Shown here: piece after piece, positions 6,355 through 24,391 of the stretch
Numbering within the stretch: the stretch's first letter is position 1
Layout of the letters: every line of letters begins with the position of its first letter
Assembly: GCA_018436595.1 (NCBI GenBank)
Contig: JAHDLC010000022.1
Coordinates: 1-64,000 of the forward strand
DNA length: 64,000 nt
Origin: Synergistaceae bacterium
GTDB lineage: Bacteria > Synergistota > Synergistia > Synergistales > Aminobacteriaceae
Direction: 5' to 3'
The notes under the pieces: generated by a model
The model's input: only the letters and a program-made list of their open reading frames with translations
Database searches by the model: none
What the model was told of the DNA's origin: nothing
Made by a program: the position numbers and the translations under genes

Positions 6355-6817
6355 GCTCCTGGCCCTCGACGTGGACGGCACTCTTACCGACGGGGGCGTC
6401 TACATGAACGGCCAGGGGGGCGAATTCAAGCGGTTCGACATCCGGGACGGCATGGGAATCGTCCGACTGAAAAAGGCCGGCGTGGAGATCGCCCTGATCA
6501 GCGGACGGCATTCGGCGGCGACGGAACAGCGGGCCCGGGATCTCGGCATCACCAGGCTCCATAACGGCGTGGCGGACAAGATGCCCCTGCTTTCTGCCAT
6601 CGTGGAGGAGCTGGGGATCACCTTCGCCGAGACGGCCTACATGGGAGACGACGTGAACGACGTGGAGTGTCTCCGGGCCGCCGGCCTGGCCCTGGTCCCC
6701 TCGGACGGCGTGCCGGAGGCCAGGGCGGCGGCGGATTACGTGACATTTTCGCCGGCGGGAAGAGGGGCTGTCCGCGAGGCCGCCGAACTCATCCTCGCCG
6801 GAAACGGAGGGCACTGA
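6344..6817 (+). CDS. kdsC: KDO-8-phosphate phosphatase KdsC (HAD family)
   Basis: Hydrolyses KDO-8-phosphate to free KDO. The 157-aa protein is a compact capless HAD phosphatase of the KdsC type: nucleophile motif LDVDGTLTDG near the N-terminus, ISGR (motif II) at about residue 50, and GDDVNDV (acidic motif) at about residue 107. Its place between lpxA and an LPS permease, with kdsA, kdsD and kdsB further on, supports KDO over other HAD substrates. It overlaps lpxA by 11 bases. Confidence 0.9.
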   Translation: MTIRLLALDVDGTLTDGGVYMNGQGGEFKRFDIRDGMGIVRLKKAGVEIALISGRHSAATEQRARDLGITRLHNGVADKMPLLSAIVEELGITFAETAYMGDDVNDVECLRAAGLALVPSDGVPEARAAADYVTFSPAGRGAVREAAELILAGNGGH

Positions 6818-8789: not shown

Positions 8790-9934
8790 CGCCGGCCGGG
8801 CGGGGGATTTTTTTCAGCTGCGGCGAGGTCTCCGGGGACGGGTACGCCGCCGCCGTGCTGGACGCCCTGCGGAGGAGGGGATTTGCAGGGTCCCTCTTCG
8901 GCATGGGAGGACCCCTCGCCGCCGGTGCGGGAGCGGAGATCGTCTCCGACTCCAGGGCCCTTCACCTCATGGGCGTCACGGATGTCCTTCCCGCCATCCC
9001 CCGCCTTCTCCGGCTGAAGAAAAACCTCGTTGACCTCATCCTCTCCCGGCGGCCCGGAGCGGTGCTCCTCATCGACAGCCCGGACTTCCACCTTCCCCTC
9101 GCCGCCTCGCTCCGCGGGAGCGGATGGCGGGGACCAATCGTCTACGCGGCGCCCCCCACGGTGTGGGCCTGGCGTCCGTGGAGGGTGAAGAACCTCCGAC
9201 GGGACATGGATCTCTGTCTTCCGCTCTTTCAGTTCGAGCACGAGTACCTCCTCCGGGCCGGGGTCAATTCGGCATGGAAAGGACACCCTCTGGTGGACGA
9301 ATTTTCCGCTCCCCTCCCGGAGGAGGCTGATCCGAAGCGGATCGCCCTCCTCCCGGGGAGCAGGCGGTCCGAAGTGTTCCGCCTCCTGCCCCCCCTGGTG
9401 GAATGCGCCTCCCTTTTGAAGGACAGGGGATACCGCCCGGTGTTCTCCATCGCTCCCGGAATGCCCGAAGATCTCAGGAACCGCCTCCGGAACGTACTGA
9501 TGGGCCATGAAACCTGGGAAGGCCCCGGGCGGGATCTCCTGGCATCGAGCGCTGCCGCGGCGGGGGCGAGCGGCACCGTGGCCGTTGAGGCCATGATGCT
9601 CGGCAGGTTCATGGCCGTTCTCTACAGGGGAGGCTTTCTCTCCTGGCTCGCCTGGAAGACCCTGGTGAAGACGCCCCGCATTTCCATCCCCAACCTCCTT
9701 GCCGGAGAGGAGCTGTACCCCGAGTTGATCCAGGGCAGGGCCACGGGCAGGAATGCCTTTTCGGCCCTTCTGGGCTTCCTGGAGGACGAGCGGGCCGCGG
9801 AGCATATCCGGGTAGGCCTCCTGTCGGCCCGGAGGGCCATGGGGCTCCCGGGAGCCGTGGACTTCTGGGCGGAGCGCCTTGAAGCCCTGTTATCAGGGCA
9901 AACAGCCTTCCCGGAGAAAGGTGCGGAAGCATGA
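8786..9934 (+). CDS. lpxB: Lipid-A-disaccharide synthase LpxB
   Basis: GT19 glycosyltransferase that condenses UDP-2,3-diacylglucosamine with lipid X. The 382-aa product has the N-terminal SCGEVSGDGYAAAVL motif, GMGGP, LIDSPDFHLPLA, the PPTVWAWRPWRVK segment, KGHPLVDE and the LLPGSRRSEV block. GTG start overlapping the lpxI stop. Length is normal. It is followed by a paralogue, so this copy, with the canonical motifs, is the best candidate for the true synthase. Confidence 0.93.
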   Translation: MTPAGRGIFFSCGEVSGDGYAAAVLDALRRRGFAGSLFGMGGPLAAGAGAEIVSDSRALHLMGVTDVLPAIPRLLRLKKNLVDLILSRRPGAVLLIDSPDFHLPLAASLRGSGWRGPIVYAAPPTVWAWRPWRVKNLRRDMDLCLPLFQFEHEYLLRAGVNSAWKGHPLVDEFSAPLPEEADPKRIALLPGSRRSEVFRLLPPLVECASLLKDRGYRPVFSIAPGMPEDLRNRLRNVLMGHETWEGPGRDLLASSAAAAGASGTVAVEAMMLGRFMAVLYRGGFLSWLAWKTLVKTPRISIPNLLAGEELYPELIQGRATGRNAFSALLGFLEDERAAEHIRVGLLSARRAMGLPGAVDFWAERLEALLSGQTAFPEKGAEA

Positions 9935-11031
9935 AGTCCGTCCTTCTCCTCGCCAACGGGCCTGGAGAGCTCTGGGGGTGGGTACGGCCCGTGGCGGCGG
10001 AACTGAAGCGCCGCTCCCGGAAAGTCTCCCTCCTTCTCCTTCCCTGCCAGTTCGCCTCCGGCGAGGAGCGAAGAGTGGCGGAAGGCCTCGCCCCTGACGA
10101 ACTCCGGGGACCTTCGGGCCTTTCGGGAACGCTGAGGGACGCCCTCTTTCTTGGCCGCAGCGCCGAGGCAGTCCTCCAGCTCGGGGGTGACCTGGCCTGG
10201 GGGCGGATTGCCGCCCGGGCTGGACGGGCCCCTCTTTTGTGCTATGCTTACGGCAGAAAAAACGGCCTTCCCCGCTGCGACAGTGTTTTCACAGCCTTTC
10301 CCGCCATGGCGGCATCCATGGGGGACAGGGTACAGGTTGCCGGGGACCTTGTCAGGGATTCTCTCGCTCTGGACGGGCAGGATTCTTCCGGGGAAGTCGG
10401 GGCGCCGTCGGTCCTGTTTTTTCCCGGAAGCAGGGCTGCCATCCGGGAGTTTTCCTTTCCCTTTCTCAAGGGAATGCTCCCTTGCCTGGAGAAGCAGGCC
10501 TCGGAATGGCGTTTCCGTGTTGTCCTCTCCCCGTTTTCCACACCGGGAGAGGAAGAGGCATGGCGTTCAGCGGGCTTTTCTCCCGCCAGGGGGGCTGAGG
10601 CTTTCCGGGGAGCGGAGTTCGCCGTCACCCAGCCGGGGACTAACACCCTGGAGCTCATGTACCGGAGAATCCCCTTCTGCGTGCTCGTTCCCTTCTCCTC
10701 TCTCCGGAAGGTTCCCCTTCCGGGGCTTGCCGGGCTGATCGCGTCCCTCCCGGGGATCGGGCCGAGGCTTCGGGAAACGGTTCTCAGGCGCAGGAGGAGG
10801 AAAATGGAGCTTCTGGCCTGGCCGAACCGACTTGCCGGAAGGATGCTGGCGGACGAATGCATCGGGGAGTATTCCCCCGAATCGGCGGCAGAATTCGTGG
10901 TTTCATGGCTCCACGACCGGTCACGAAGAGACGGCCTCCGGGAAGCCCTCGGAGACGTTGCCGGGTCGGCCCCCCAGGGAGCTGCTGTCCGGATCGCCGA
11001 CGAAATAGAAAGGATGACTGTCCGGGTATGA
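9931..11031 (+). CDS. LpxB-related GT-B protein of unknown acceptor
   Basis: A 366-aa protein that resembles LpxB in layout (NGPGELWGWVRPVAAEL near the start, FFPGSRAA mid-protein, TQPGTNTLELMYRRIP in the nucleotide-binding half) but lacks the canonical LpxB N-terminal and tryptophan-rich motifs. A GT-B fold and sugar transfer to lipid A or its precursor are inferred, not shown. It starts inside the lpxB stop (ATGA) and its own stop overlaps msbA, so it is made with both. Confidence 0.72.
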   Translation: MKSVLLLANGPGELWGWVRPVAAELKRRSRKVSLLLLPCQFASGEERRVAEGLAPDELRGPSGLSGTLRDALFLGRSAEAVLQLGGDLAWGRIAARAGRAPLLCYAYGRKNGLPRCDSVFTAFPAMAASMGDRVQVAGDLVRDSLALDGQDSSGEVGAPSVLFFPGSRAAIREFSFPFLKGMLPCLEKQASEWRFRVVLSPFSTPGEEEAWRSAGFSPARGAEAFRGAEFAVTQPGTNTLELMYRRIPFCVLVPFSSLRKVPLPGLAGLIASLPGIGPRLRETVLRRRRRKMELLAWPNRLAGRMLADECIGEYSPESAAEFVVSWLHDRSRRDGLREALGDVAGSAPQGAAVRIADEIERMTVRV

Positions 11032-12806
11032 GCCTGATGACAACGCGGCAGGGCGGCGAAAGCCCGGGAAAGAAATCGGTCTACCTTCGGCTCCTTTCCA
11101 GCGCCCGCCCCTACCGGAAACGGTTTTTCTGGGCGGTGGGGTGCATGCTCCTCGCCTCGGCCTGCAACGTGGTTCCTCCCTGGCTCCTCAAAAACGTGGT
11201 GGACGATGTCCTCATCGCCCGGAATCTGGCCATGCTCAACGTCCTTCCCTTCCTCCTGGTGGCCCTCTTCGCCGGGAAGGGCATCGCCTCCTACGGCCAC
11301 CAGTACCTGATGAACTGGGTGGGCCAGAACGTGGTCATGGACCTCCGCCTGCGGCTGTACGACCACCTCCAGAGAATGTCCCTCAGGTACCTCCACGGGA
11401 ACCGCCTCGGGGAGATCATGTCCCGGATCACCAACGACGTGACCATCCTCCAGAACCTGGTCACCTCCGTGGTGGTCAACCTGGTGGTCCAGTCCGTCAC
11501 CTTCCTCGGCATGGTGGGGTTTCTCTTTTACATCAACTGGAAGCTCACCCTCATCACCTTCGCCATCCTTCCTCTCACGGTGCTGATCCTCGACCGGGCG
11601 TCAAAAAAACTCCGGATCGTGGGGCACGCCATCCAGAGCGAGCTTGCGGGGCTGTCGGCGGTGGTGCAGGAGGCCTTTTCGGCGGTCCGGGTCGTCCGGT
11701 CCTTCGCCACGGAGGACCTGGAGCTTTCCCGCTTCCGCAGGAGCAACCGGGAGAACTTCAGGGCCGTGATGCATGGCGTGCAGGTTCAGGCAGCCCTCGC
11801 CGCCATCATCGAGCTGGTCCTCATCGCCGCCCTTGCCCTCATCCTCTGGCTCGGCGGAAGGGAAGTGGTGGGGGGCGGCCAGACGCCCGGAGAACTCATC
11901 GCCTTCCTAGGCTACCTTGGCTTCCTCGTCCAGCCCATACGGGTCTTCACCTCCGTGGTCAGCTCCATGCAGCTCGGCCTTGCGGCGGCCGAGCGCATCT
12001 TCGGCCTCCTGGACATTCCCGGAGAAGTCGAATCCCCGGTGAACCCGGTCCCCCTCGGGGTGCTGGAAGGGCGCGTCATCTTCCGGAACGTCACCTTCTC
12101 CTACGCAGAGGGGCAGCCGGTGCTCCGGGACATCTCGCTGGAAATCGTCCCCGGAGAAAAAGTGGCCCTGGTGGGCCCGACGGGATCGGGCAAGTCCACC
12201 CTCGCAGATCTCATCCCCCGGTTCTACGATCCTGACAGCGGGACCGTCCTCGTGGACGGCGCTGACCTCCGGCGGGTGAACCTCCGAGACCTGAGAAAGC
12301 AGATCGGCATCGTCCCCCAGGAGTCCCTCCTGATGAAGGGGACCATCGCCTTCAACATCTCCTACGGCCTGCCGGAGCTTTCTCGGGAGCAGATACGGGA
12401 GGCCGCGGACATAGCGGGTATCCTCTCCTTCATCGAATCCCTCCCGGAAGGGTTCGAAACGGAGGTAGGGGAGCGGGGCGTCACCCTGAGCGGAGGGCAG
12501 AGGCAGCGCATCGCCATAGCCCGGGCGGTGGTCCGCGACCCGAGGATCCTCATCCTCGACGAGGCCACATCCTCCCTGGACCTCGAGGTGGAGCGGCAGG
12601 TCCAGGAGGCCATGAACCGGGCCATGAAGGGACGGACCTCCCTTGTCATCGCCCACCGCCTTTCCACCATACGGAATGCCGACCGGATCGTGGTCCTCGA
12701 CGGCGGCCGGATCGTGGAGCAGGGACGGCACGATGAGCTTCTCGCAGGGGGCGGAATCTACTGCAGGCTCCACAACCTCCAGTTCGACCGGGGAACGGGA
12801 CAATGA
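11028..12806 (+). CDS. msbA: Lipid A flippase MsbA-type ABC exporter
   Basis: Fused half-transporter predicted to flip core-lipid A across the inner membrane. The ATG at 11028 overlaps the previous stop and gives 592 aa, the family length; a longer reading frame back to 10857 runs inside the previous gene and adds low-complexity Arg/Pro sequence, so it is rejected. A six-helix exporter domain (about 1-320) precedes an ATPase domain with Walker A GPTGSGKST, the VPQESLL Q-loop, signature LSGGQRQRIAIARA, Walker B ILILDEATSSLD and the IAHRLST switch. The lpx context supports MsbA over a multidrug exporter. Confidence 0.92.
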   Translation: MSLMTTRQGGESPGKKSVYLRLLSSARPYRKRFFWAVGCMLLASACNVVPPWLLKNVVDDVLIARNLAMLNVLPFLLVALFAGKGIASYGHQYLMNWVGQNVVMDLRLRLYDHLQRMSLRYLHGNRLGEIMSRITNDVTILQNLVTSVVVNLVVQSVTFLGMVGFLFYINWKLTLITFAILPLTVLILDRASKKLRIVGHAIQSELAGLSAVVQEAFSAVRVVRSFATEDLELSRFRRSNRENFRAVMHGVQVQAALAAIIELVLIAALALILWLGGREVVGGGQTPGELIAFLGYLGFLVQPIRVFTSVVSSMQLGLAAAERIFGLLDIPGEVESPVNPVPLGVLEGRVIFRNVTFSYAEGQPVLRDISLEIVPGEKVALVGPTGSGKSTLADLIPRFYDPDSGTVLVDGADLRRVNLRDLRKQIGIVPQESLLMKGTIAFNISYGLPELSREQIREAADIAGILSFIESLPEGFETEVGERGVTLSGGQRQRIAIARAVVRDPRILILDEATSSLDLEVERQVQEAMNRAMKGRTSLVIAHRLSTIRNADRIVVLDGGRIVEQGRHDELLAGGGIYCRLHNLQFDRGTGQ

Positions 12807-15085
12807 GCCTCCTCAAGAGCTACCTTTCTTTTGCCCGGGGAGAAGCGCCTCTCTCTCCCTGGGGAATCACCTACCCCTTCGGGCTCGTGGCCAGGGCTGT
12901 TGTCTCCCTCCGGAACTTCGCCTACGACCACGGCATCGTTCCTCTTGTGGAGCCTTCCCTTCCCGTGATCAGCGTGGGGAACATCACCCTGGGCGGGACG
13001 AACAAGACTCCCTTCGTGGAAATGCTGTGCCGCATGCTTCTTGAGGCGGGCATCCCGGTGGGGATCGTCAGCAGGGGATACGGCGGAACGACCGAGGACC
13101 CTGTGGTCCTGTCCTCGAATACCCTCCAGGGAAGCGACGGCTTCTGCACGGACGACATCGCCGCCCTCCGGGGTCTCGTGGGGGACGAACCGCTGCTGCT
13201 GGCCTCCCGGCTGAGGGGCGTTCCCGTGGCGGTGTCCAAGGACCGCCTTCGGGACATCGAAGCCCTCTCGGACAGGAACGTGAAGCTCATTGTCGCCGAC
13301 GACGCCTTCCAGCACCGGCGGATGGCAAGGGACGTGGATATCGCCCTGGTGGACGCCTGCTGCCCCTTCGGAAACGGGTGGGTGGCCCCTGCCGGCATAC
13401 TTCGGGAACCTCCCGCCGAGTTGTCCCGGGCCTCCCTGGTGGTGATCACCAAGTCGGACCAGGTACCGGCCGAAAAGCTGCGCATCCTGGCGGCGGAGAT
13501 CCGGCGGTTCGTTCCGGAGGAGAAAGTCTTCTACTCCCGGCTCTCGGTTCCCACCTGGCGCCGGTGGAACGGGTGCTGGAGCGCAGAGCGCTGCGAAGCC
13601 CCCCGCGCCGTCCTCGCCTTTTCCGCCATCGGAAGCCCGGAGAGTTTCCAGAGATCCCTGGAGCAGCGGGGAATAGCCATCGTCAGGGAACACCGCTTCA
13701 AGGACCACCACAGGTACGGCCGGGAGGACATGGAGATGCTCGAGGAAGCCTTCGCAGGGTGCGGGGCGGAAGCCATGACCTGCACCGAGAAGGATATCTA
13801 CAACCTTCCCACTGACTGGAGACCTTCCCGGGACATCCTCGTCCCCCTCATCTCCACGGAGCTCGACGACGAACCCCGCTTCAGGAAGGCCCTGGCGGAC
13901 GCCCTCCGGCCGAGGATTGTGGTGGCGTCCAACGGCTACGGCGAAGACTCCATGGGAGCACTCCTGGCGCGGAAGCTCAGGGAGCGGTTCCCTGCTGCGG
14001 CGGTCTCCTCCTTCCCCATCGTGGGGAAGGGGGAGCATTACCTCAAAGAAGGCATTCCCGTGGACTCTGTGCCCGAGGATTCCCCCAGCGGCGGGGTCAT
14101 CAAGTACCGCCTGTCCGACCTCTGGAGAGACCTCAGGTCGGGGCTTCTCCGATCCATCGCCCGGCAGATGAGGGCGTGGAAGCGGCTTCGGGGGGCCATC
14201 CGCACCCCCGTCTGCGTGGGGGATGTCTACCTCCTGCTCCACGCCCTGTGGGGCCAGGGACAGCTCCCCGTCCTTGTGGCCACCGCCAAGACGGTCTACC
14301 TCAGCGGCCACTGGCGTCTCGAGCGGTTCATCATCAAGTACAGGAGCCGCATCGCCTGGACCCGGGACAGGGACACCGCGGAGGAGCTTCTCCGGTCCGG
14401 CGCCGCCGCCCGGTTCGACGGCAATCCTATTATGGACCTGACCTGTGATAATACTATCGAGAAGGTGTCGTGGGGCGACAAGGACGGTTTCCGGATCCTG
14501 CTCCTGCCCGGCAGCCGCCGGAGGGCCTACGAGGACGTCCGGCTCCTTCTCGACGCCGTGGAGCTGCTGAGCGGGCGCATGGTCTGCTCATACCTCATGG
14601 TGATCGCCCCCACCCTCGACACGGACGAGCTGCTGGCTTCCTGCCAGGGATGGACCTCCTTCGAGGAGAACGGACAGAGGGGAATACGGAAAGAAAAGGC
14701 CTCCATCTCCTTCTTCTTTGGTCCCCTTCCCGCGGTCACGGAAGGAGCCCATCTGCTCATCGGTCTGGGCGGCACGGCGAACCAGGTCTGCGCCGGCATG
14801 GGGGTCCCCGTGGTGTCCATAGAGGAGAAGGGGAAGTTCGTGCAGAAAAAGCTGCTCGGCGAATCGGAGCTTCTCGTCCCGGCCACGGCCCGGGACCTTG
14901 CCTGCGGCGCCGAGAAAATACTCTCCGACAATGAACTCCGCCTCCGGATGGCCAGGGAGGGCCGGGAGCGCCTCGGCGGCCCTGGTGCCCTCGACATGGT
15001 GGTGGAGCACACAGCGTCCGCCATGGGATGGGGACTCCGGTGCGAAGTGTATTCAATGCTGTCGGAGCAATGGGGCCGCGAATGA
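12803..15085 (+). CDS. lpxK: LpxK tetraacyldisaccharide 4'-kinase fused to an LpxB-like GT-B domain
   Basis: A 760-aa two-domain protein. Residues 1 to about 365 are LpxK, which phosphorylates the 4' position of the lipid A disaccharide: VGNITLGGTNKTP is the P-loop (residues 64-70 read GGTNKTP where GGTGKTP is usual), and DDAFQHRR is the second family motif. From about residue 367 a second domain starts (VVASNGYGEDSMGALLARKL) and continues with KTVYLSGHW, FDGNPIMD, LLPGSRRRAYED and GLGGTANQVCAGMGVPVV, the pattern of the lipid-A-disaccharide-synthase-related family known from cyanobacteria. No stop or frameshift separates them. The first start overlaps the msbA stop. The role of the second domain is unknown. 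Confidence 0.88.
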   Translation: MSLLKSYLSFARGEAPLSPWGITYPFGLVARAVVSLRNFAYDHGIVPLVEPSLPVISVGNITLGGTNKTPFVEMLCRMLLEAGIPVGIVSRGYGGTTEDPVVLSSNTLQGSDGFCTDDIAALRGLVGDEPLLLASRLRGVPVAVSKDRLRDIEALSDRNVKLIVADDAFQHRRMARDVDIALVDACCPFGNGWVAPAGILREPPAELSRASLVVITKSDQVPAEKLRILAAEIRRFVPEEKVFYSRLSVPTWRRWNGCWSAERCEAPRAVLAFSAIGSPESFQRSLEQRGIAIVREHRFKDHHRYGREDMEMLEEAFAGCGAEAMTCTEKDIYNLPTDWRPSRDILVPLISTELDDEPRFRKALADALRPRIVVASNGYGEDSMGALLARKLRERFPAAAVSSFPIVGKGEHYLKEGIPVDSVPEDSPSGGVIKYRLSDLWRDLRSGLLRSIARQMRAWKRLRGAIRTPVCVGDVYLLLHALWGQGQLPVLVATAKTVYLSGHWRLERFIIKYRSRIAWTRDRDTAEELLRSGAAARFDGNPIMDLTCDNTIEKVSWGDKDGFRILLLPGSRRRAYEDVRLLLDAVELLSGRMVCSYLMVIAPTLDTDELLASCQGWTSFEENGQRGIRKEKASISFFFGPLPAVTEGAHLLIGLGGTANQVCAGMGVPVVSIEEKGKFVQKKLLGESELLVPATARDLACGAEKILSDNELRLRMAREGRERLGGPGALDMVVEHTASAMGWGLRCEVYSMLSEQWGRE

Positions 15086-15527: not shown

Positions 15528-15546
15528 CACTAGGAGATGATTGTTC

Positions 15547-16455
15547 ATGAGCGATAACGCGAAAATTCCTACCTTCACCCCTGTCCGGGTGGAAGACCCC
15601 TCCGGCGATGGGCGCTGGAATTTCACCATAGGGGAAGGTAGCCTCGCCCTGATCGCCGGGCCCTGTGCCCTGGAAACCCCCGAACTGGGACTGGAAATCG
15701 CCGAGACGGTCCGGGACCTCTGCAGGCCCCTGGGGATCAACTACATCTTCAAGGCCTCCTTCGACAAGGCCAACCGGACATCCCTGAAAGGATTCCGCGG
15801 CCCGGGCCTGGAAGAGGGGCTCGTGCACCTGGCCCGCATCGGCCGGAAGGCCGGTGTTCCTGTGCTCACCGACATTCACGAGTCATGGCAGGCCGATTCC
15901 GCCGCCCGCTCAGTGGACATCCTCCAGATACCGGCCTTTCTCTGCCGCCAGACGGACCTCCTCCTTGCCGCGGCCCGGACCGGCAAGCCCCTCAACGTGA
16001 AGAAGGCCCAGTTCCTCGCCCCCTGGGACATGAAGCATGTTTTGGAGAAGTGCCGGGGAGGAGGAGCCCCATCGGTGATGCTCTGCGAGCGGGGGACCAC
16101 CATGGGGTACGGCCAGCTGGTGGTGGACATGCGGTCCCTTCCGGTCATGCGCTCCTTCGGGTGCCCCGTGGTCTTCGACGGCACCCACAGCGTCCAGATG
16201 CCCGGAGCCGCCGGCAGCGCCAGCGGAGGCGACAGGCGGTTCATCCTTCCCCTCGCTAGAGCTGCTCTTGCCGCGGGGGTGGACGCCCTTTTCCTTGAGA
16301 CTCACCCCTGCCCGGAAAAGGCCCTCAGCGACGGGCCCAACCTCGTCCCCCTCGGGAAGATGAAGTTTCTCCTGGAGCAGCTTTCCGAGCTTCATGCCCT
16401 GGTGAGGGACAGGCTCGGCATGCCCTCCCTGGGATGGGCTGGGGAGGATCGCTGA
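15547..16455 (+). CDS. kdsA: KDO-8-phosphate synthase KdsA (metal-dependent class)
   Basis: Condenses arabinose-5-phosphate with phosphoenolpyruvate. The ATG at 15547 sits nine bases after AGGAGA (15532-15537); a TTG at 15541 would be too close. The 302-aa TIM-barrel protein has LIAGPCALE, in which the cysteine is the metal ligand of the Aquifex-type class (asparagine in the E. coli enzyme), and the remaining ligands are visible as FDGTHSVQ (His), FLETHP (Glu) and SDGPN (Asp). The KASFDKANRTS and LNVKKAQFLAPWD segments are typical. Confidence 0.95.
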   Translation: MSDNAKIPTFTPVRVEDPSGDGRWNFTIGEGSLALIAGPCALETPELGLEIAETVRDLCRPLGINYIFKASFDKANRTSLKGFRGPGLEEGLVHLARIGRKAGVPVLTDIHESWQADSAARSVDILQIPAFLCRQTDLLLAAARTGKPLNVKKAQFLAPWDMKHVLEKCRGGGAPSVMLCERGTTMGYGQLVVDMRSLPVMRSFGCPVVFDGTHSVQMPGAAGSASGGDRRFILPLARAALAAGVDALFLETHPCPEKALSDGPNLVPLGKMKFLLEQLSELHALVRDRLGMPSLGWAGEDR

Positions 16456-16456
16456 C

Positions 16457-17512
16457 ATGCTCTGCCTTCCCTGGGAACGGGAGGGGCGATGCCTCTCCGA
16501 TGAACAGCTTCTCGAGGCAGGAAAGGGGATCCTCCGGTCCGAGGCCGCCGAGATCCAGCGGGCGGCGGACAGGATGGACATGGAGCTCGTCCGGGCCGCC
16601 CGGATCATCCACTCCTGCAGGGGGCGCCTCGTGGTGGCGGGCATGGGAAAATCGGGGATCATCGGCCGGAAAATCGCCGCGACCCTCGCCTCCCTGGGCA
16701 CGCCTTCCTTTTTCCTCCACGCCGCTGAAGGCTCCCACGGCGACCTGGGGATGGTCTGCCGGGACGACGCCGCCCTCATCCTGAGCAACAGCGGGACCAC
16801 GGCGGAGGTACTCTCCATCCTTCCCCACTTCCGCAGGCTCGGAGCGCCCATCATCGCCATAACCGGCGGGCTGAAATCGCCCCTGGCCCAGAACGCCGAC
16901 GTGGTTCTCGACTCCTCGGTGCTCTCCGAAGCCGGCATTCTGGCGAAGGTCACCCCTGCGGACGACCTAGGGGAGGACGAGGACGCCCTGAACCTGGCCC
17001 CTCTCTGCAGCACCACCCTCCAGCTCGCTCTCGGGGACGCCCTCGCGGGGATGGTGACGGAACTCCGGGGGCTCCGCCCCGAGGATTTCGCCCTCTTCCA
17101 CCCCGGCGGTGCTCTCGGCCGGAAACTGCTGACCAGGATCCGGGACGTGATGGCCACAGGGGACAAGCTTCCCGTCGTGGGGCTTTCCGTGAAGGTGAGC
17201 GACGCCCTCTTCGAGATGACCAGCAAGGGATACGGGGCCACCATCATCGTGGACGACCGGGGGGACCTGGCGGGGATCTTCACCGACGGCGACCTCAGGC
17301 GGCTCATCGCCCGGAAGGGCGTGGAATGTCTGTCCGAAGAAGTTTCGGGAGTCATGATTGCCACCCCCCTCGTGATCGCTCCTGACAGGCTTGCCGTGGA
17401 AGCGGTCCGCATCATGGAGCAGCGGGAAATTTCCGCCATTATCGTGGTGGAAGGGAAGCGCCCCGTGGGCATCCTCCACCTCCACGAACTTCTCAAGGCG
17501 GGGGTGGCCTGA
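16457..17512 (+). CDS. kdsD: Arabinose-5-phosphate isomerase KdsD (KpsF/GutQ family)
   Basis: Converts ribulose-5-phosphate to arabinose-5-phosphate, the KdsA substrate. The 351-aa protein has an N-terminal SIS domain (GMGKSGIIGRKIAATLASLG; SHGDLGMV; LSNSGTTAEVL) and two C-terminal CBS domains starting at RDVMATGDKLP. One base separates it from kdsA, and the neighbourhood argues for the LPS enzyme rather than the sugar-alcohol paralogue GutQ. Confidence 0.94.
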   Translation: MLCLPWEREGRCLSDEQLLEAGKGILRSEAAEIQRAADRMDMELVRAARIIHSCRGRLVVAGMGKSGIIGRKIAATLASLGTPSFFLHAAEGSHGDLGMVCRDDAALILSNSGTTAEVLSILPHFRRLGAPIIAITGGLKSPLAQNADVVLDSSVLSEAGILAKVTPADDLGEDEDALNLAPLCSTTLQLALGDALAGMVTELRGLRPEDFALFHPGGALGRKLLTRIRDVMATGDKLPVVGLSVKVSDALFEMTSKGYGATIIVDDRGDLAGIFTDGDLRRLIARKGVECLSEEVSGVMIATPLVIAPDRLAVEAVRIMEQREISAIIVVEGKRPVGILHLHELLKAGVA

Positions 17513-17513
17513 C

Positions 17514-18779
17514 CTGAACCCCCTGCTGTACAGGGCCATCGTCTCGGCCGCCTATCCGGTGCTCTATCCCTGGCTGGCGAAGAAATACGCCGTCGGGTTG
17601 GAGGAGCGGCGGGCTCTGTATCCAAAGGACAAGGCGGAAAGGTTCCCTGAACGGCCTCTCTGGGTCCATGCGGTTTCGGTGGGGGAGGTGCAGTCCGCCT
17701 GGCCCCTTCTGGATCTGCTCGCCCGGGAAAACCCCGGGGAAAAGGTCCTCCTTTCCACCACCACCGTCACGGGCCGGGAAACGGCCTTTCGACTCGCTGA
17801 CGGACTCTTCGGAGAGCACATCTACTACCCCTGGGACGTTCCCCGGATCGCCCGGCGGTCCCTCGACCGGATCCGCCCGAAGGGGTATATTGTGATGGAG
17901 ACGGAAATCTGGCCCGCCATGCTTCTGGAATTGAAGAGAAGGTCCATCCCCGCCTTCCTGGCCAACGGCCGCTTCTCCGAGAGGACGGCCCGGAACGTCA
18001 AAAAGCGTCCCGCTTTCTGGAGGCAGGTCTACGGTCTCTTCTCCCTTCTGCTGGTGCGCTCCGCCGCCGACCGGGACTTCCTGGCGGACCTGGGGGTGCC
18101 GGAGGGAAAGCTGCGGGTCACCGGCGACTGCAAGGTGGACGCCCTGCTGCTCCGGAAGCAGGCGGCGGATCTTTCCCGAATCCGGGAAATTGTTGCTGGA
18201 CAGGGCCCCGTCTTCGTGGCGGGAAGCACCCACCAGGGGGAGGAATCGATAGCCCTCGCCGCGTTCCGGAACGTGCGGGAACGGATCCCTCAAGCCCGCC
18301 TGGTCATTGCGCCCCGTCACCCGGAGAGAAGCGGGGACGTGCTGGAAGCAGCCTCCCGGACGGCGGAAGCCGCTCTTCTGTCAGAAGCCGAACGGTCCGG
18401 CGGTACTTCCTGGGACATCCTCGTGATCGACCGCATCGGTGTGCTCTTCGACCTCTACGGCGTGTCCGACGGCGCCTTCATCGGCGGAAGCCTGGTGGAC
18501 AAGGGCGGGCAGAACATCATGGAGCCCGCCGCCTTCGGGATACCCTTTTCCCACGGTCCCTTCATGCGGGATTTCGTGGAAGCGGCAGGGGAGCTGGGAA
18601 AACTGGGGGCGGCAACCCTCGTTCGAACAGAAGCGGAAATGGCCTCCCACTGGGAGCGGTGCCTGGACCAGAATGAACGGGAGAAAGCGCGTCGTGCCTC
18701 CGGAGCCTACTTTCAGGCAGTGGGAGGTGCGGCGAAGGCCACTCTCGATGAAATCCGCAGGGAGATGACAAAGAAATGA
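17514..18779 (+). CDS. waaA: KDO transferase WaaA (KdtA)
   Basis: GT30 transferase that adds KDO from CMP-KDO to lipid A at the inner membrane. The N-terminal segment LNPLLYRAIVSAAYPVLYPWL is the usual membrane-associated helix, HAVSVGEVQSA holds the catalytic glutamate, and METEIWPAM, NGRFSERTARN, GSTHQGEE and APRHPER follow in order. No ATG, GTG or TTG lies in frame between the kdsD stop and the conserved region, so the likely start is a CTG at 17514, two bases after the kdsD stop; this gives 421 aa, the normal length. The exact start is uncertain. Confidence 0.9.
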   Translation: MNPLLYRAIVSAAYPVLYPWLAKKYAVGLEERRALYPKDKAERFPERPLWVHAVSVGEVQSAWPLLDLLARENPGEKVLLSTTTVTGRETAFRLADGLFGEHIYYPWDVPRIARRSLDRIRPKGYIVMETEIWPAMLLELKRRSIPAFLANGRFSERTARNVKKRPAFWRQVYGLFSLLLVRSAADRDFLADLGVPEGKLRVTGDCKVDALLLRKQAADLSRIREIVAGQGPVFVAGSTHQGEESIALAAFRNVRERIPQARLVIAPRHPERSGDVLEAASRTAEAALLSEAERSGGTSWDILVIDRIGVLFDLYGVSDGAFIGGSLVDKGGQNIMEPAAFGIPFSHGPFMRDFVEAAGELGKLGAATLVRTEAEMASHWERCLDQNEREKARRASGAYFQAVGGAAKATLDEIRREMTKK

Positions 18780-19987
18780 CAATCAATGAACACCTTCTGA
18801 ATGAATTCTACGAAAACCTTGACGAGCGCTCCAGGGAAGCCCTGGACCAGGCGGCGGAGAAAATGACCGCCGCCAAGAGGCGGGGAGGAAAGATCGTCGT
18901 GGCCACGGGGAGCGGACCCAACATCCACGAGGGGGTGACCACCCTCATCGCCGAGCTCATGGACAAGGGCATCGTGGACGGGGTCACCACAAGCTCCGCC
19001 GTGGTGGGCCACGAGATGGGGGGCGCCCTGGACCTGGTGAAGATGTGCAAAGCCTCCGCCCTCGGTTTCGATGAACGGTACATGCCCAGGGGCGACGTGT
19101 TTGAATTCACCCAAATGCCGGAAGAGCAGCTGGCATCCCTCCGAAACGAGATGGTCCTGGACGAGGACCTTCTTGCACGGGGGGAGAAGGCCGAGGGACG
19201 GCTTGTGATCAAGGCTGCGGGGAACATGGCCTATCCCGTGGGGCTCCGGAACGAGAACCTGGCCGGGGAGATCCTCATCTTCTGCAGAACCCTGGGTCTT
19301 TCCTTCGAGACCGTGGCCGGATGGGGCGCCGACCGGCGGACCATGATCGGCATCGGGGCGGAAAAGAACATTCCCGTGCTGGTCAGCATCCCCCAGCTCG
19401 TGGGCAGCGGCCATATCGGCATGGCCATCGGCGACAGCATACCGGTCTTCGAGCGGTCGAAACGAATCGCCGCCATGCTGGCAGGTGCGGAGGTGATCAT
19501 CGAGTCGGCGGTGGTCCTCAGCCAGGAGATCCATGACGGCCCCTTCGAGTGCTACACAGGCCACGGCATCTGGTCATGGTGGAAAGGGTACCCCACCTAC
19601 TCCCTGAAGGACAAAACCCTGGTGCGGATCGACCTGGACGAAAACCTCCGGAAGGCTCGGGACCTCGAGACCGGCAGCTCCCTCATCCAGGAGGCCATCA
19701 ACCGGGGACTGCCCAAGACGAAGATATCGAAGATCCCTTTCCGCATGGAAATGTCCGCCTTCGCCCGCCACGAGGGCAGCATTCCCGTCATCGGGGACAT
19801 CGGTCAGGTGTGGCCCGTCCTGGCATGGAAGGTCGCCGGTGACCTCGGGATACCCCTTGATTTTATGAGCTACGCCCAGCACACCCCCGAAGGGAAGGCC
19901 ATGAGGGAATGGATCGTCGAGGCAGTGAAGCCTGTGGACAAAGACAGGCTCCTGGCCCGGACCAGGGAATACGGATTGCAGGCATGA
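18776..19987 (+). CDS. DHS-like Rossmann-fold protein of unknown function (long form)
   Basis: A 403-aa cytoplasmic protein between waaA and kdsB, overlapping both neighbours by an ATGA. Residues 39-75 read as a nucleotide-binding Rossmann unit (VVATGSGPNIHEGVTTLI, then a conserved GH-E near residue 72). This resembles the NAD-binding region of deoxyhypusine synthase and of the archaeal-type ornithine cyclodeaminase C-terminal domain. A second block near residues 211-250 includes GHIGMAIGD and EVIIESAVVLSQEI. Both blocks align with the protein at 21950. The substrate is unknown; the location points to KDO or core-sugar metabolism, but that is inference only. Confidence 0.7.
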   Translation: MTINEHLLNEFYENLDERSREALDQAAEKMTAAKRRGGKIVVATGSGPNIHEGVTTLIAELMDKGIVDGVTTSSAVVGHEMGGALDLVKMCKASALGFDERYMPRGDVFEFTQMPEEQLASLRNEMVLDEDLLARGEKAEGRLVIKAAGNMAYPVGLRNENLAGEILIFCRTLGLSFETVAGWGADRRTMIGIGAEKNIPVLVSIPQLVGSGHIGMAIGDSIPVFERSKRIAAMLAGAEVIIESAVVLSQEIHDGPFECYTGHGIWSWWKGYPTYSLKDKTLVRIDLDENLRKARDLETGSSLIQEAINRGLPKTKISKIPFRMEMSAFARHEGSIPVIGDIGQVWPVLAWKVAGDLGIPLDFMSYAQHTPEGKAMREWIVEAVKPVDKDRLLARTREYGLQA

Positions 19988-20721
19988 GAGTCCTCGGCGT
20001 CATCCCGGCCCGGTACGCCTCCACGCGCCTGCCCGGCAAGCCCCTGGCGGACATCTGCGGCAAGACTCTCGTCCTCAGGGTCTATGAACGGGCGTCCCTC
20101 TCCGCGATGCTCCACCGCCTCGTGGTCGCCACGGACGACGAACGTATACTTCAGGAGGTGCGGAGCTTCGGGGGAAACTGCGTTCTCACGTCCCCGGACC
20201 ACCCCAACGGCACCTGCCGGGCGGCGGAAGCGGCCGAAAAAGAAGACGCCGACGTGGTGATCAACATCCAGGGAGACGAACCCTTCCTGGACCCCGTCAT
20301 GATCGACGAAACGGCATACCTTCTTTCCCAGGATGGCTCTGCCTTCTCGTCCACCCTCTGCGAACCGCTGGCCGACCCGAAATCCATCAGGAACCCCAAC
20401 GTGGTGAAGGTGGTCATGGACCGGTCAGGCAACGCCCTGTACTTCAGCCGGTCCGTCATTCCCTATCCAAGGGTTGAAACGGGCGTTCCAGTCTACAGGC
20501 ATATCGGCATCTACGGCTTCCGGAGGGAGTTTTTATTCACCTACGCCTCCCTGCCCCCCACGCCCCTTTCGGCGGCGGAATCCCTCGAGCAGCTTCGGAT
20601 CCTGGAGCACGGCTATTCCATGAAGGTGGCCGTGACCCGGGGGCGGTGCGGTCCCAGCGTGGACACCCCCGAGGATCTGGAGAACGTGCGGACAATCTTC
20701 CGGGGGATGGAAAAGGAGTGA
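19984..20721 (+). CDS. kdsB: CMP-KDO synthetase KdsB
   Basis: Activates KDO with CTP to give the donor for WaaA. The ATG at 19984 overlaps the previous stop and gives 245 aa; an upstream in-frame start lies inside the previous gene and lacks family similarity. Motifs: VIPARYASTRLPGKPL at the N-terminus, INIQGDEPF and YFSRSVIPYPR. With kdsA, kdsC, kdsD and waaA all present in the window, the KDO pathway is complete here. Confidence 0.95.
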   Translation: MRVLGVIPARYASTRLPGKPLADICGKTLVLRVYERASLSAMLHRLVVATDDERILQEVRSFGGNCVLTSPDHPNGTCRAAEAAEKEDADVVINIQGDEPFLDPVMIDETAYLLSQDGSAFSSTLCEPLADPKSIRNPNVVKVVMDRSGNALYFSRSVIPYPRVETGVPVYRHIGIYGFRREFLFTYASLPPTPLSAAESLEQLRILEHGYSMKVAVTRGRCGPSVDTPEDLENVRTIFRGMEKE

Positions 20722-20725
20722 TACC

Positions 20726-21901
20726 GTGACGGCCTGTCCCGCCTTGGTCTTTCTTCTGAGCGACGGCATCCGGGGGCACCTCTTCCAGGGAAGGGGCGTC
20801 GCGGGATGGCTCTCCCGCTTCACCGGCGCCGACGTGGTGGAACTGGACGTACCCCGCCCCACTGGGTGGGAGCGGACCCGCCTCTTCAAGTGGAAGGCCC
20901 GGTTTCTTCCCTCCATGGACGGCGCCGGGGCTGTCCGGTGGATTCAAGAGGCAGGCGGGTCCTCCCTTCTGGACAGGGCAGGTCAGGAACTGGCCACGAG
21001 GAACTGCGGCGAAAACTCCGCCCTCTTCCTCTCCGCAGGGAGCGGCGCGGCGCTCTTCACCCTTGCTCTCGCCAGGGCGACAGGGCAGAAATGCTGCACC
21101 CTCATGACCCCCTCGGTGCTGGGGACGGCTCCCTTCGATTTTGCCGTTGTTCCCGAGCACGACCATCCGGAAAAAAGAGAGAACGTCCTCTCCACACTCG
21201 GAGCACCGAACGCCATCTTTCCCGACGAGCTCGAGCGGAAAGGGTGGGAGCTTGCCCAGAAATACCCTCCCCGGGAAACGGGTGTGCGTGAGAACCGGTG
21301 GGGAGTACTCGTGGGGGGCGACGACGCAAACTACCGGGTTTCGGCAGAATGGGTGCGCCGGGCACTAGGGCCGGTACTCGAAGCCGGGGCCAAAGCGGAC
21401 GCCGACATCTACATCACCACCTCCAGGCGGACATGCCCCGAGGCCGAGGAAGAACTGCTCAGGCTGACGGGAAGTCACACCAACGTCAAAATGCTCTTCC
21501 TCGCTTCCAGGGATCCCTTCAATCCCGTTCCAGGCATGCTCGGACTCTGCTCACGCATCTTTGTTACCGAGGACTCCGTTTCCATGGTCTCTGAGGCTGT
21601 CACCGCAGGCAGGGAGGTCTTCCTCCTCAGGACGGAACGGCAGAACCGCGGCAGGACGGCCCTTCAGGAGACGACGGCATTTCTGGTAAGAAAAAAACTC
21701 CTTCCGGGGAGTCTCCTCTGGGGTATTCCACGGTTCGATGCCCTCTTCTCCAGCCTTGCCTCCAGGGGATTTCTGAAAGAAGCGCACTATGATAGACTGT
21801 ATACGCCGATAGGGACCTCGGTGTCCCTTCATCCGGATGGCCCGGTCCTCAACGAGGCGAAGCGTACCGCTGAGTGGATCATGGAGAGATGGAGCAAATA
21901 G
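20726..21901 (+). CDS. ELM1-family GT-B-like protein
   Basis: GTG start four bases after kdsB. The 391-aa protein matches the family often named mitochondrial fission ELM1: LLSDGIRGHLFQ near the start, LSAGSGAALF, PFDFAVVPEHD, VLVGGDDANYR and a C-terminal VTEDSVSMVSEAVTAGREVFLL. The bacterial members have a GT-B-like layout and often sit with LPS genes; the actual reaction is not established. Here it lies between kdsB and a second core block, consistent with a glycosyl-transfer or LPS-modifying role. Confidence 0.75.
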   Translation: MTACPALVFLLSDGIRGHLFQGRGVAGWLSRFTGADVVELDVPRPTGWERTRLFKWKARFLPSMDGAGAVRWIQEAGGSSLLDRAGQELATRNCGENSALFLSAGSGAALFTLALARATGQKCCTLMTPSVLGTAPFDFAVVPEHDHPEKRENVLSTLGAPNAIFPDELERKGWELAQKYPPRETGVRENRWGVLVGGDDANYRVSAEWVRRALGPVLEAGAKADADIYITTSRRTCPEAEEELLRLTGSHTNVKMLFLASRDPFNPVPGMLGLCSRIFVTEDSVSMVSEAVTAGREVFLLRTERQNRGRTALQETTAFLVRKKLLPGSLLWGIPRFDALFSSLASRGFLKEAHYDRLYTPIGTSVSLHPDGPVLNEAKRTAEWIMERWSK

Positions 21902-21949
21902 TGTAACATGTGGTAAATACTGTATATTTCGCAAGGAGGATATTACAGG

Positions 21950-22906
21950 GTGGGACGGTACGAAGAACTTGATCTGTCAAAACTGCGGACGTACAAAGCC
22001 GCTGACAGGATTTCCAAAATCAGTGCCCGAAATATCGCCCTGCCTCCTCGCGAAGGAATGACCCTCAAGGCATTTCTCGAAAACCTTCCCGATGTTTTGA
22101 AGGCGAAGGATCTGAAAGCACTGGCCGGGGCCATTGTACAGGCAAAAAGAGATAAACTGCCTGTGATCGCAATGTTCGGCGGACATGTGGTGAAGTGCGG
22201 CTGCCTGCCCGTTCTCATTGATCTCGCACGAAGGGGATTCATTACCCATTTTGCCTCAAACGGAGCCGCTGCAATTCATGACGTTGAACTGGCTTCCTGG
22301 GGACAGACCTCCGAAGATGTGGCGGCACAGCTTGAGGACGGATCTTTCGGCATGGCTTCAGACACTGCCGAAACCCTTAATTCTGCCGCACGATCGGCTT
22401 TCGGAGGAACGCTTGGTTTCGGTGAATCCATTGGAAAACTCCTTGTGGAAAGAAAAGTACCTTTCGGAGGAAATTCTCTGGCCGTGCAAAGTTTTCTGCT
22501 CCCCATTCCCTATACGGTTCATGTCGCTCTGGGTACTGATATAGTCCACCAGCATCCCGGAGCTGACGGCGCATCCATCGGAGATGCCTCTCTCAGGGAC
22601 TTCCGGATCTTTGCCGCATCTGTTGCAAGGATGGACGGCGGAGGAGTAATCCTGAACCTCGGCAGTGCAGTTCTGCTTCCTGAAGTGTTTCTTAAGGCCC
22701 TGTCTATAGCCCGGAACCTGGGAAACAATGTCAGGAACATTGTTACAGCCAACATGGATATGATCCAGCATTACCGTCCCCTGAACAATGTTGTGACCCG
22801 TCCGGTCATTTCAGGAGGACAGGGATACTCATTTACGGGTCATCATGAAATAATGATTCCCCTCCTTGCAGCTGCCGTTTACGAGCAAAGCTCGGAAAAC
22901 GGCTGA
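21950..22906 (+). CDS. DHS-like Rossmann-fold protein of unknown function (short form)
   Basis: GTG start eleven bases after a strong AAGGAGG. The 318-aa product contains a Rossmann unit at residues 72-113 (VIAMFGGHVVKCGCLPVLI, then FASNGAAAIHDVE), close in pattern to the NAD site of deoxyhypusine synthase, and a second block near 203-242 (GASIGDASLRDF; VILNLGSAVLLPEV). Both blocks correspond to those in the 403-aa protein at 18776. It sits directly before hldE, which hints at a role in heptose supply; gmhA, gmhB and hldD are not in the window, but nothing shows it replaces any of them. It also marks the start of the AT-richer segment. Confidence 0.7.
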   Translation: MGRYEELDLSKLRTYKAADRISKISARNIALPPREGMTLKAFLENLPDVLKAKDLKALAGAIVQAKRDKLPVIAMFGGHVVKCGCLPVLIDLARRGFITHFASNGAAAIHDVELASWGQTSEDVAAQLEDGSFGMASDTAETLNSAARSAFGGTLGFGESIGKLLVERKVPFGGNSLAVQSFLLPIPYTVHVALGTDIVHQHPGADGASIGDASLRDFRIFAASVARMDGGGVILNLGSAVLLPEVFLKALSIARNLGNNVRNIVTANMDMIQHYRPLNNVVTRPVISGGQGYSFTGHHEIMIPLLAAAVYEQSSENG

Positions 22907-22960
22907 GTGCTGTGTGATGGAGGCATGGAACATACTCTGCCTGGAAAGGATACTGAACGG

Positions 22961-24391
22961 ATGATGTTGAATCCTGACAGTTTTAAACACATTAATATTC
23001 TTGTCCTCGGAGATGTCATGCTTGACAGGTATCTTTCAGGAGATGTACACCGTGTTTCTCCGGAGGCTCCGGTCCCTGTCCTGTCGGTGCGGGACCGGAA
23101 GGAAGTGCTTGGTGGTGCAGGGAACGTGGCTGCCAACCTTGCTGCCCTGGGATGTTCAGTCACTCTGATGGGAGTCATAGGAAGAGACTATGAGGGAAAG
23201 AGAATAACGAAACTGCTCGCTGAAAAGGGAATCGGAAGATGTCTCATAGAAACAGAGGATCGGCCGACAACCACAAAAACGAGAGTTATCGGGGGAAACC
23301 AGCAGATCGTCCGGTTTGATGAAGAAACAGCCGAGGTTGTTTCTTCTGGTACAGAAGAGATGCTTTCCACGGCAATGCTCGGTTTGCTCGATTCTGCCAA
23401 AGGTGTTCTTCTCTCCGATTACGGCAAAGGAGTGCTGAAAGGAAACCTGTGCAAATCTGTGATCTCCGGAGCACTTCGACGGGGGGTGCCGGTTTTTGTC
23501 GATCCAAAGGGCCGTGACTGGGAACGATATCGCGGTGCGGCGTGCGTCACCCCAAATGAAGCGGAATTCTTTGCTGTTTCCGGGGAATCAACTGACGAAC
23601 GCGGGGTTTTTTCGCGGAATGCTCTGGAAATAAAAAGCAGGTTTGAAATTAATAATTTACTTGTCACCAGGGGAGCGAAAGGAATCGCTTTTTTCCCGGA
23701 GGAGGGGGATCCCTGTTTTGCTCCCGCCCCCAGGGTTAGGGAAGTATACGACGTCTCGGGAGCAGGCGACACGGTTGTAGCGGTTCTCGCGGCATCGGTG
23801 GTTTCCGGATATTCCTGGGACTATGGAGTCTCTCTCGCCAACAGGGCGGCGGGAATCGTCATAACACGGGCGGGTACTTCTCCTGTGTCAATGGAAGATT
23901 TGTCCGGCCCAGTTGAAGAAGACTCGAAGATTTGCACCTGGGCTGAAGCTGAAAGAAGGGCGGCACTCTGGAAAAAGAATGGGGCTTCCGTCGTTTTTAC
24001 GAACGGGTGTTTCGACCTCCTTCACCCCGGCCATATAAAGGTGCTTCGCCAGGCCGCACGGGAAGGTGACAGGCTCGTGGTCGGGCTGAATTCCGATGCG
24101 TCGGTCCGCCGCCTCAAGGGTCCGGACCGCCCAGTTCTCCACCAGGCTGACCGTGCCTCTATTCTGGCTGCCCTTGATTGCGTGGATCTTGTTGTTGTGT
24201 TCGAGGAAGATACACCCGAGAATTTAATTCGTGTTCTTGTACCCTCCGTGCTTGTCAAAGGAGGAGACTACACCCCAGAAAGCATTGTGGGAAGGAAAAT
24301 AGTCGAAGAGGGGGGCGGCAGAGTCGTCATCGTTCCCCTGATGGAAGGAAAAAGCACTACCAACATTCTCCGTTCCCTGAAAAAACAGTGA
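22961..24391 (+). CDS. hldE: Bifunctional heptose-7-phosphate kinase / heptose-1-phosphate adenylyltransferase HldE
   Basis: Supplies ADP-heptose for the LPS core. The ATG at 22961 follows AAGGA by ten bases and aligns with the E. coli N-terminus; in-frame starts at 22907 and 22925 are poorly placed. The 476 aa hold an N-terminal ribokinase-type domain (LVLGDVMLDRY, SPEAPVPVLSV, GGAGNVAANLAALG, VYDVSGAGDTVV) and a C-terminal nucleotidyltransferase domain (TNGCFDLLHPGHIKVLR; LNSDASVRRLKG; VKGGDYTPE). Both enzyme halves look complete. Confidence 0.94.
   Translation: MMLNPDSFKHINILVLGDVMLDRYLSGDVHRVSPEAPVPVLSVRDRKEVLGGAGNVAANLAALGCSVTLMGVIGRDYEGKRITKLLAEKGIGRCLIETEDRPTTTKTRVIGGNQQIVRFDEETAEVVSSGTEEMLSTAMLGLLDSAKGVLLSDYGKGVLKGNLCKSVISGALRRGVPVFVDPKGRDWERYRGAACVTPNEAEFFAVSGESTDERGVFSRNALEIKSRFEINNLLVTRGAKGIAFFPEEGDPCFAPAPRVREVYDVSGAGDTVVAVLAASVVSGYSWDYGVSLANRAAGIVITRAGTSPVSMEDLSGPVEEDSKICTWAEAERRAALWKKNGASVVFTNGCFDLLHPGHIKVLRQAAREGDRLVVGLNSDASVRRLKGPDRPVLHQADRASILAALDCVDLVVVFEEDTPENLIRVLVPSVLVKGGDYTPESIVGRKIVEEGGGRVVIVPLMEGKSTTNILRSLKKQ

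Follow-up and report, generated by a model that had tools for sequence, protein, structure and literature searches.

Two proteins of predicted deoxyhypusine synthase/ornithine cyclodeaminase fold in a Synergistaceae lipopolysaccharide gene cluster: a candidate replacement for HldD and a partner of kdsB

HldD (TIGR02197) is the ADP-glyceromanno-heptose 6-epimerase, a short-chain dehydrogenase that epimerises the heptose at C6 by a hidden redox reaction with NADP. KdnA and KdnB, an aminotransferase and an iron alcohol dehydrogenase, are known cases of sugar enzymes that act on Kdo (3-deoxy-D-manno-oct-2-ulosonic acid) ahead of a KdsB-type enzyme. We describe two proteins of a different predicted fold, that of deoxyhypusine synthase (DHS) and of archaeal-type ornithine cyclodeaminase, encoded in the lipopolysaccharide (LPS) gene cluster of a Synergistaceae bacterium (assembly GCA_018436595.1). 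The stretch analysed, hereafter the window, comprises positions 1 to 64,000 of contig JAHDLC010000022.1 (64,000 nucleotides). The first protein, DHSL1 (18776–19987, + strand; 403 amino acids), is encoded directly upstream of kdsB and matches no Pfam or NCBIfam family over its cut-off. The second (21950–22906, + strand; 318 amino acids, GTG start) is a member of NF052581 (E 5.3e-123; 410.4 bits over 301/301 positions, cut-off 250 bits), which NCBI names the GSU2086 family and for which it gives no function. Both are enzymes without an assigned function that combine a known fold with a known pathway. The best reading of the GSU2086-family protein of the window is that it is a non-homologous replacement for HldD: gene linkage and mutual exclusion are observed, the fold is modelled, and the reaction, the cofactor and the position in the pathway are proposed from these. 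For DHSL1, the best guess is that it carries out a hidden-redox reaction with free Kdo, or an isomer of Kdo, as substrate; its link to Kdo is seen in its gene neighbours, and the chemistry is proposed.

Predicted fold and comparison with DHS and ArgZ/AgrE

The two proteins are distant in sequence. BLASTP aligns them with an E value of 0.12, and DHSL1 scores 29 bits against NF052581 over about 75 positions (31–105), outside the family. Between profiles of 48 DHSL1 and 49 GSU2086 homologues, the only region that aligns is the first Rossmann unit (residues 8–80 with 39–111, E 2.9e-6); by sequence alone, the 238/233 register of a second common block ranks 226 among 120,344 twelve-column window pairs. 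PDB sequence searches returned nothing at E < 0.01, and an hhalign comparison with the single human DHS sequence gave no alignment. The AlphaFold2 models (pLDDT 89 and pTM 0.91 for DHSL1; pLDDT 81 and pTM 0.81 for the GSU2086 protein) were made independently, and both match the same ArgZ/AgrE domain and DHS over most of their length. The DHSL1 model aligns with ArgZ at Z 17.2 (211 aligned, 2.9 Å) and with DHS at Z 16.8 (258 residues), and the GSU2086 model aligns with AgrE at Z 20.6 (236 aligned, 4.5 Å), with 3c2q at Z 19.7 and with DHS at Z 19.1 (256 residues). Because both models align to the same domain and to DHS, the relation is held to be real: based on the models, the two proteins belong to one superfamily, beyond chance, but lie far apart and are not close paralogues. 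A preliminary description of this DNA had treated them as paralogues that share two blocks in the same order, and had likened their fold to DHS and archaeal-type ornithine cyclodeaminase. The structure models agree with its fold call (Z about 16–21) and uphold a superfamily relation, and the profile alignment recovers its first block; close paralogy is not borne out by BLASTP, and at the sequence level its second block is weakly supported.

The nearest fold of both proteins is that of the ArgZ/AgrE C-terminal domain and of M. maripaludis 3c2q (TIGR00300, PF21570). AgrE has been crystallised with NAD and ornithine (6lrg), and its reaction is of the oxidise-eliminate-reduce kind. Both proteins differ from this group in scoring far under the TIGR00300 cut-off of 410.8 bits (22.1 bits for DHSL1, 18.1 bits for the GSU2086 protein), and no arginine or ornithine genes occur in the window cluster. 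DHS (PF01916; PDB 1dhs, 1rlz, and 7cmc) resembles both in overall fold, in the first Rossmann unit and in a Gly/Ser-rich loop. It differs from both in its catalytic Lys329, which has no equivalent in either protein, in its substrate eIF5A, which is not known from bacteria, and in that both proteins adjoin sugar genes.

Residue correspondences with DHS were taken from ungapped sequence windows, not from coordinates, using a human DHS query identical to PDB 1rlz over its full length. Lys329, the loop 104–111 and Asp342 have established roles in DHS, Lys329 in catalysis and Asp342 at the NAD ribose. DHSL1 residues 336–351 align with DHS 337–352, which places the invariant D341 at the position of Asp342. 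The Lys329 position corresponds to A328 in DHSL1, which has no Lys at 320–351, and falls near 285 in the GSU2086 protein, which has no Lys after 249. The loop 104–111 corresponds to an invariant GSGPN segment in DHSL1 and to a GGHVVKCG segment in the GSU2086 protein, where the Asp342 position is H298. With D341 in the one and H298 in the other as the Asp342 equivalent, the alignments make it likely that DHSL1 has a dinucleotide site; the GSU2086 protein may have one too, differing in a detail of the cofactor.

Could both proteins simply be amine-acting enzymes, either true deoxyhypusine or homospermidine synthases or ornithine cyclodeaminases? They have the fold of these enzymes and give weak matches to Pfam DS and ArgZ, but the scores are far under the family cut-offs. 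DHSL1 reaches 14.8 bits against Pfam DS (cut-off 27) and 17.3 bits against dhys (304), and the GSU2086 protein reaches 15.7 bits against PRK02301 (364). The segment aligned with Lys329 has no Lys, and the neighbours are sugar genes. An activity on amines is therefore highly improbable and already largely refuted. Membership of DHSL1 in UbiD was considered and rejected, the only matches being weak ones of residues 187–264 below the cut-off (best Pfam E 0.016, 4/48 homologues). No UbiD chain is among the structure matches listed (Foldseek, VIA), which does not by itself exclude a UbiD-like module for prenylated flavin mononucleotide in DHSL1.

The GSU2086 family and HldD

The occurrence of the two families was compared in 297 genomes of the phylum reached through a Syntrophaceae genome, with family calls made over curated cut-offs. 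The GSU2086 family is present in 179 of these and HldD in 65. Both occur together in 12 genomes, the GSU2086 family alone in 167, HldD alone in 53, and neither in 65 (Fisher P = 7e-15). When only the 253 GmhB-positive genomes are counted, the corresponding numbers are 12, 149, 50, and 42 (P = 1.5e-16). GmhB is common on both sides, in 161/179 GSU2086-positive and 92/118 GSU2086-negative genomes, so a general lack of the pathway does not explain the exclusion. The count of 161/179 also rules out the GSU2086 family as a replacement for GmhB.

The opposition recurs along the phylogeny. On an IF-2 tree of 79 of the 297 genomes, from which those with neither gene were left out, at least 13 changes in the presence of either gene fall on well-supported (starred) branches. 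Of 13 independent pairs, about 9 show one gene exchanged for the other, and these recurrent exchanges between close relatives hold good. A similar pattern is seen in the Synergistota: the genome of the window (3.2 Mb, 100% complete) and two relatives carry the GSU2086 family without HldD, and 8/8 relatives with HldD lack the GSU2086 family. A search of the whole genome of the window for TIGR02197 found no HldD at E 1e-60. In HldD-less GSU2086 genomes, C6 epimerisation of the heptose is the step without a known enzyme.

The gene neighbours belong to the same pathway. In the phylum sampled, 38 of the 41 GSU2086 loci inspected have gmhA on the same strand at a distance of no more than 400 bp, and one genome has gmhA, GSU2086, hldE, and gmhB consecutively. 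As in the window, the GSU2086 gene adjoins hldE in a further Synergistaceae genome and two Spirochaetota; the hldE of the window (22907–24391, + strand) encodes the heptose-7-phosphate kinase/heptose-1-phosphate adenylyltransferase with PfkB and CTP_transf_like domains. In the close relative G001, the GSU2086 gene is represented ahead of hldE by its C-terminal part alone (L218:10830–11209), perhaps because the gene is disrupted or the assembly faulty. The family takes its name from a Geobacter sulfurreducens gene that lies between hldE and gmhA. A published study described the product of this sugar-operon gene as a hypothetical protein (PMC5585712). Transposon sequencing (Tn-Seq) during electrode growth gave values of -3.7 for gmhA, -3.2 for GSU2086, and -3.1 for hldE, and the authors argued that polar effects were small (PMC5585712). 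The GSU2086 growth defect resembles that of gmhA and hldE. This was the one paper naming GSU2086 that our literature search returned, and the search found no Geobacter LPS structure.

Relatives of the family also occur on plasmids and in virus-collection contigs. Plasmid pDCAR1 of Solidesulfovibrio carbinolicus (L353) has a cassette of an HldE-like bifunctional protein, GSU2086, and a GmhA-like protein; next to it are genes for nonulosonate synthesis-type functions and for three radical SAM proteins. The Chloroflexota plasmid plas-ZRK (L354) has a sugar ABC transporter followed by a HAD protein, GSU2086, a heptose-kinase-domain relative, and a GmhA-like protein. Distant relatives occur in IMG/VR contigs (L261–L273), either in heptose cassettes or between terminase and portal genes. 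For example, the relative lies between two HldE domains in L265 (4510–6808) and near HldE in L266 (4896–8336) and L273, and it lies beside terminase and portal genes in L267 (452–2847) and L268. PHROGs and named phage records gave no match.

Based on these observations, the GSU2086 protein may substitute for HldD in the heptose pathway, alongside GmhA, HldE, and GmhB. In the proposed reaction, a D-glycero-D-manno-heptose, either as the 7-phosphate or as the ADP-sugar, would be oxidised at C6, and the hydride would then be returned on the opposite face, yielding the L-glycero form. The ArgZ/DHS-type fold carries out oxidation followed by reduction with a tightly held dinucleotide, which makes it a fitting substitute for HldD. 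The two would share a pathway step, as the mutual exclusion of their genes suggests, and differ in kind: the GSU2086 protein has no sequence match to HldD, its best fold matches are DHS and ArgZ, and the profile search reported no TIGR02197 match for the protein of the window. Given the exclusion of HldD, the protein is more likely a new enzyme for an old reaction than the catalyst of a new one.

Several points weigh against an HldD replacement. The 65 genomes with neither gene indicate that L-glycero-heptose is not universal, and 12 genomes carry both genes. The sign test on the IF-2 tree is biased towards opposition because genomes with neither gene are absent from the tree, making a joint change in a pair impossible. 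H298, at the position of the Asp342 of DHS, implies that the cofactor may differ. The cassette on plas-ZRK has no adenylyltransferase in view, and its host phylum is not expected to make LPS; together with the fact that gmhA, not hldE, is the commonest neighbour, this favours an early substrate at the level of the sugar phosphate, or else a role that is wider. It is conceivable, although unlikely, that the GSU2086 protein does not epimerise heptose at all but acts at another heptose step or as a partner or regulator of GmhA, and that these lineages use D-glycero-D-manno-heptose unepimerised. The near-constant presence of gmhA, the plasmid-borne kinase-domain relative without an adenylyltransferase and the genomes with neither gene would all fit such a role. 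It leaves unexplained the strong avoidance of HldD with its repeated changes on the tree, and it sits poorly with a fold of NAD-dependent enzymes and with the invariant polar, catalytic-looking residues of the homologues (H79, K82, H110, D197, and K249). If the GSU2086 family does replace HldD, many Gram-negative bacteria (60% of the genomes sampled in one phylum, plus Geobacter) finish their heptose with an enzyme unrelated to HldD, a gap in the LPS pathway is filled, and a named family without a function gains one. ADP-heptose is an immune signal whose synthesis is discussed as a drug target, and a replacement affects which species such ideas cover.

DHSL1 and free Kdo

The nearest DHSL1 genes are in Synergistaceae, and relatives of 60–83% identity are found in Synergistota, Thermodesulfobacteriota, Spirochaetota, Atribacterota, Chloroflexota, Bacillota (Acidaminococcaceae), and Bacteroidota. 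None was found in viral contigs or in plasmids, and our literature search found no description of DHSL1. In the first five of these phyla, kdsB is adjacent to DHSL1 or one gene off, and many Synergistota have DHSL1 within a full lipid A/Kdo synthesis cluster with kdsA, kdsD, and kdsB. Linkage to kdsB or an LPS cluster holds for 29 of the 48 members of the DHSL1 tree. This linkage is lost in two clades, one of gut Synergistota, Acidaminococcaceae, and Prevotellaceae, the other of Bacteroidota; in the gut clade, some Acidaminococcaceae retain DHSL1 ahead of ELM1 and glycosyltransferase genes.

The association with kdsB persists beyond LPS clusters: an Atribacterota operon (L056) has a TRAP transporter, DHSL1, kdsB, a YhcH-family gene, a NanA/DapA-type aldolase, fucI (L-fucose isomerase), and a ribulokinase. 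Kdo aldolase yields pyruvate and D-arabinose, fucose isomerase converts D-arabinose to D-ribulose, and ribulokinase phosphorylates D-ribulose. Given these known reactions, the gene content of the operon reads as a pathway for the uptake and use or breakdown of Kdo. NanA/DapA-type aldolases also occur in L046 and L073, and TRAP genes in L061 and L077. The common element of the DHSL1 loci is Kdo as a free sugar. DHSL1 may therefore act on free Kdo or a stereoisomer beside the activation step of KdsB, probably by the same oxidise-then-reduce logic, and if so it points to an unstudied reaction of Kdo. KdnA and KdnB belong to different families, and neither is matched by DHSL1 in profile scans.

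These loci would also accommodate an enzyme of Kdo salvage or breakdown, for example one that converts an unusual imported ulosonic acid to Kdo, in which case its place in the cluster would reflect substrate supply to KdsB and not LPS decoration. The L056 operon, the TRAP or aldolase neighbours in the other four loci and the occurrence of DHSL1 in gut genomes without a KdsC match speak for salvage; the many Synergistota that hold DHSL1 inside the full lipid A/Kdo cluster speak against it, as does the cluster of the window, which also has kdsC and waaA. We regard salvage as a minority possibility, on the unlikely side. A role of DHSL1 as a replacement for KdsC was ruled out: kdsC is present in the window (6344–6817, + strand), and KdsC often occurs together with DHSL1, in the window and 18/25 DHSL1-positive genomes.

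The cofactor of one or both proteins could be the nickel-pincer nucleotide (NPN) in place of NAD, with LarA-like hydride chemistry on the same sugars. This idea draws on the NCBI name of the related TIGR00300, 'ornithine cyclodeaminase, nickel-pincer nucleotide-dependent', and on larC (nickel insertion, PF01969), which comes soon after DHSL1 in three genomes of one Synergistota family (L203/G047, G038, and G055) and directly follows kdsB where inspected in that family. However, LarC is present in 53/61 Synergistota with or without DHSL1 and so does not track it, and the adjacency is limited to one family. Use of NPN is improbable.

Taken together, both proteins may be dinucleotide-type oxidoreductases of the DHS/ornithine-cyclodeaminase fold that serve the inner-core sugars of LPS, the GSU2086 protein replacing HldD and DHSL1 acting on free Kdo or a stereoisomer. 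We advance this joint reading tentatively, at somewhat less than an even chance. On the DHSL1 side, seven DHSL1-positive genomes have no KdsC match and only about half of the KdsC-positive Synergistota have DHSL1, and both facts weigh against it. A further idea is that one fold family outside the short-chain dehydrogenases would supply hidden-redox epimerases for both inner-core sugar side chains, the GSU2086 family at C6 of heptose and DHSL1 at the corresponding C7 of Kdo. The two positions resemble each other in geometry, the exocyclic glycol formed by C6–C7 of heptose being the same as that formed by C7–C8 of Kdo. We consider this a speculative long shot; were it true, anaerobes would make an isomer of Kdo so far undescribed in LPS.

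Gene order in the window

The cluster contains, in order, genes for BamA, LpxD, LpxC, FabZ, LpxA, KdsC (6344), an LptF/G-type protein, LpxI, and LpxB. It continues with an LpxB-like protein, MsbA, an LpxK fusion, KdsA, KdsD, WaaA, DHSL1, and KdsB, followed by ELM1, the GSU2086-family protein, and HldE; after these come glycosyltransferases and a protein of the O-antigen-ligase type. A number of the names were assigned by sequence reading together with established knowledge. For example, kdsA (Kdo-8-phosphate synthase; 15541–16455), kdsD (arabinose-5-phosphate isomerase; 16457–17512), and waaA (Kdo transferase; 17391–18779), all on the + strand, were named in this way and have homologues in related loci. 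The open reading frame of waaA overlaps kdsD, so the true start of waaA is further downstream. The kdsB gene (CMP-Kdo synthetase; 19981–20721, + strand), the partner of DHSL1, matches TIGR00466 over the cut-off.

The preliminary description gave the order waaA, DHSL1, kdsB, ELM1, GSU2086-family gene, hldE, which is confirmed, and the open reading frames of the two proteins are present where it placed them and carry the motifs it quoted. The link to LPS core sugars that it drew is real but divides differently, the GSU2086 protein going with gmhA and hldE and DHSL1 with kdsB, and it does not extend to a general linkage with waaA. It had counted homologues that usually stand away from LPS genes as evidence against its proposal; DHSL1 is apart from kdsB in two clades. 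Its word 'undescribed', used of the possible reaction, was only half right: the GSU2086 family has a name and a Tn-Seq phenotype, and no function is assigned to it.

Three further genes of the cluster deserve mention. The ELM1-type protein (20726–21901, + strand; PF06258, E 9.5e-49) keeps its position after DHSL1 and kdsB in many Synergistota, and also in Acidaminococcaceae. The gene at 9931–11031, behind the regular LpxB at 8786, encodes a second LpxB-like protein with a weak PF02684 match and no NCBIfam match. The LpxK at 12803–15085 has a fused C-terminal domain related to lipid-A-disaccharide synthase (TIGR03492, just under the cut-off).

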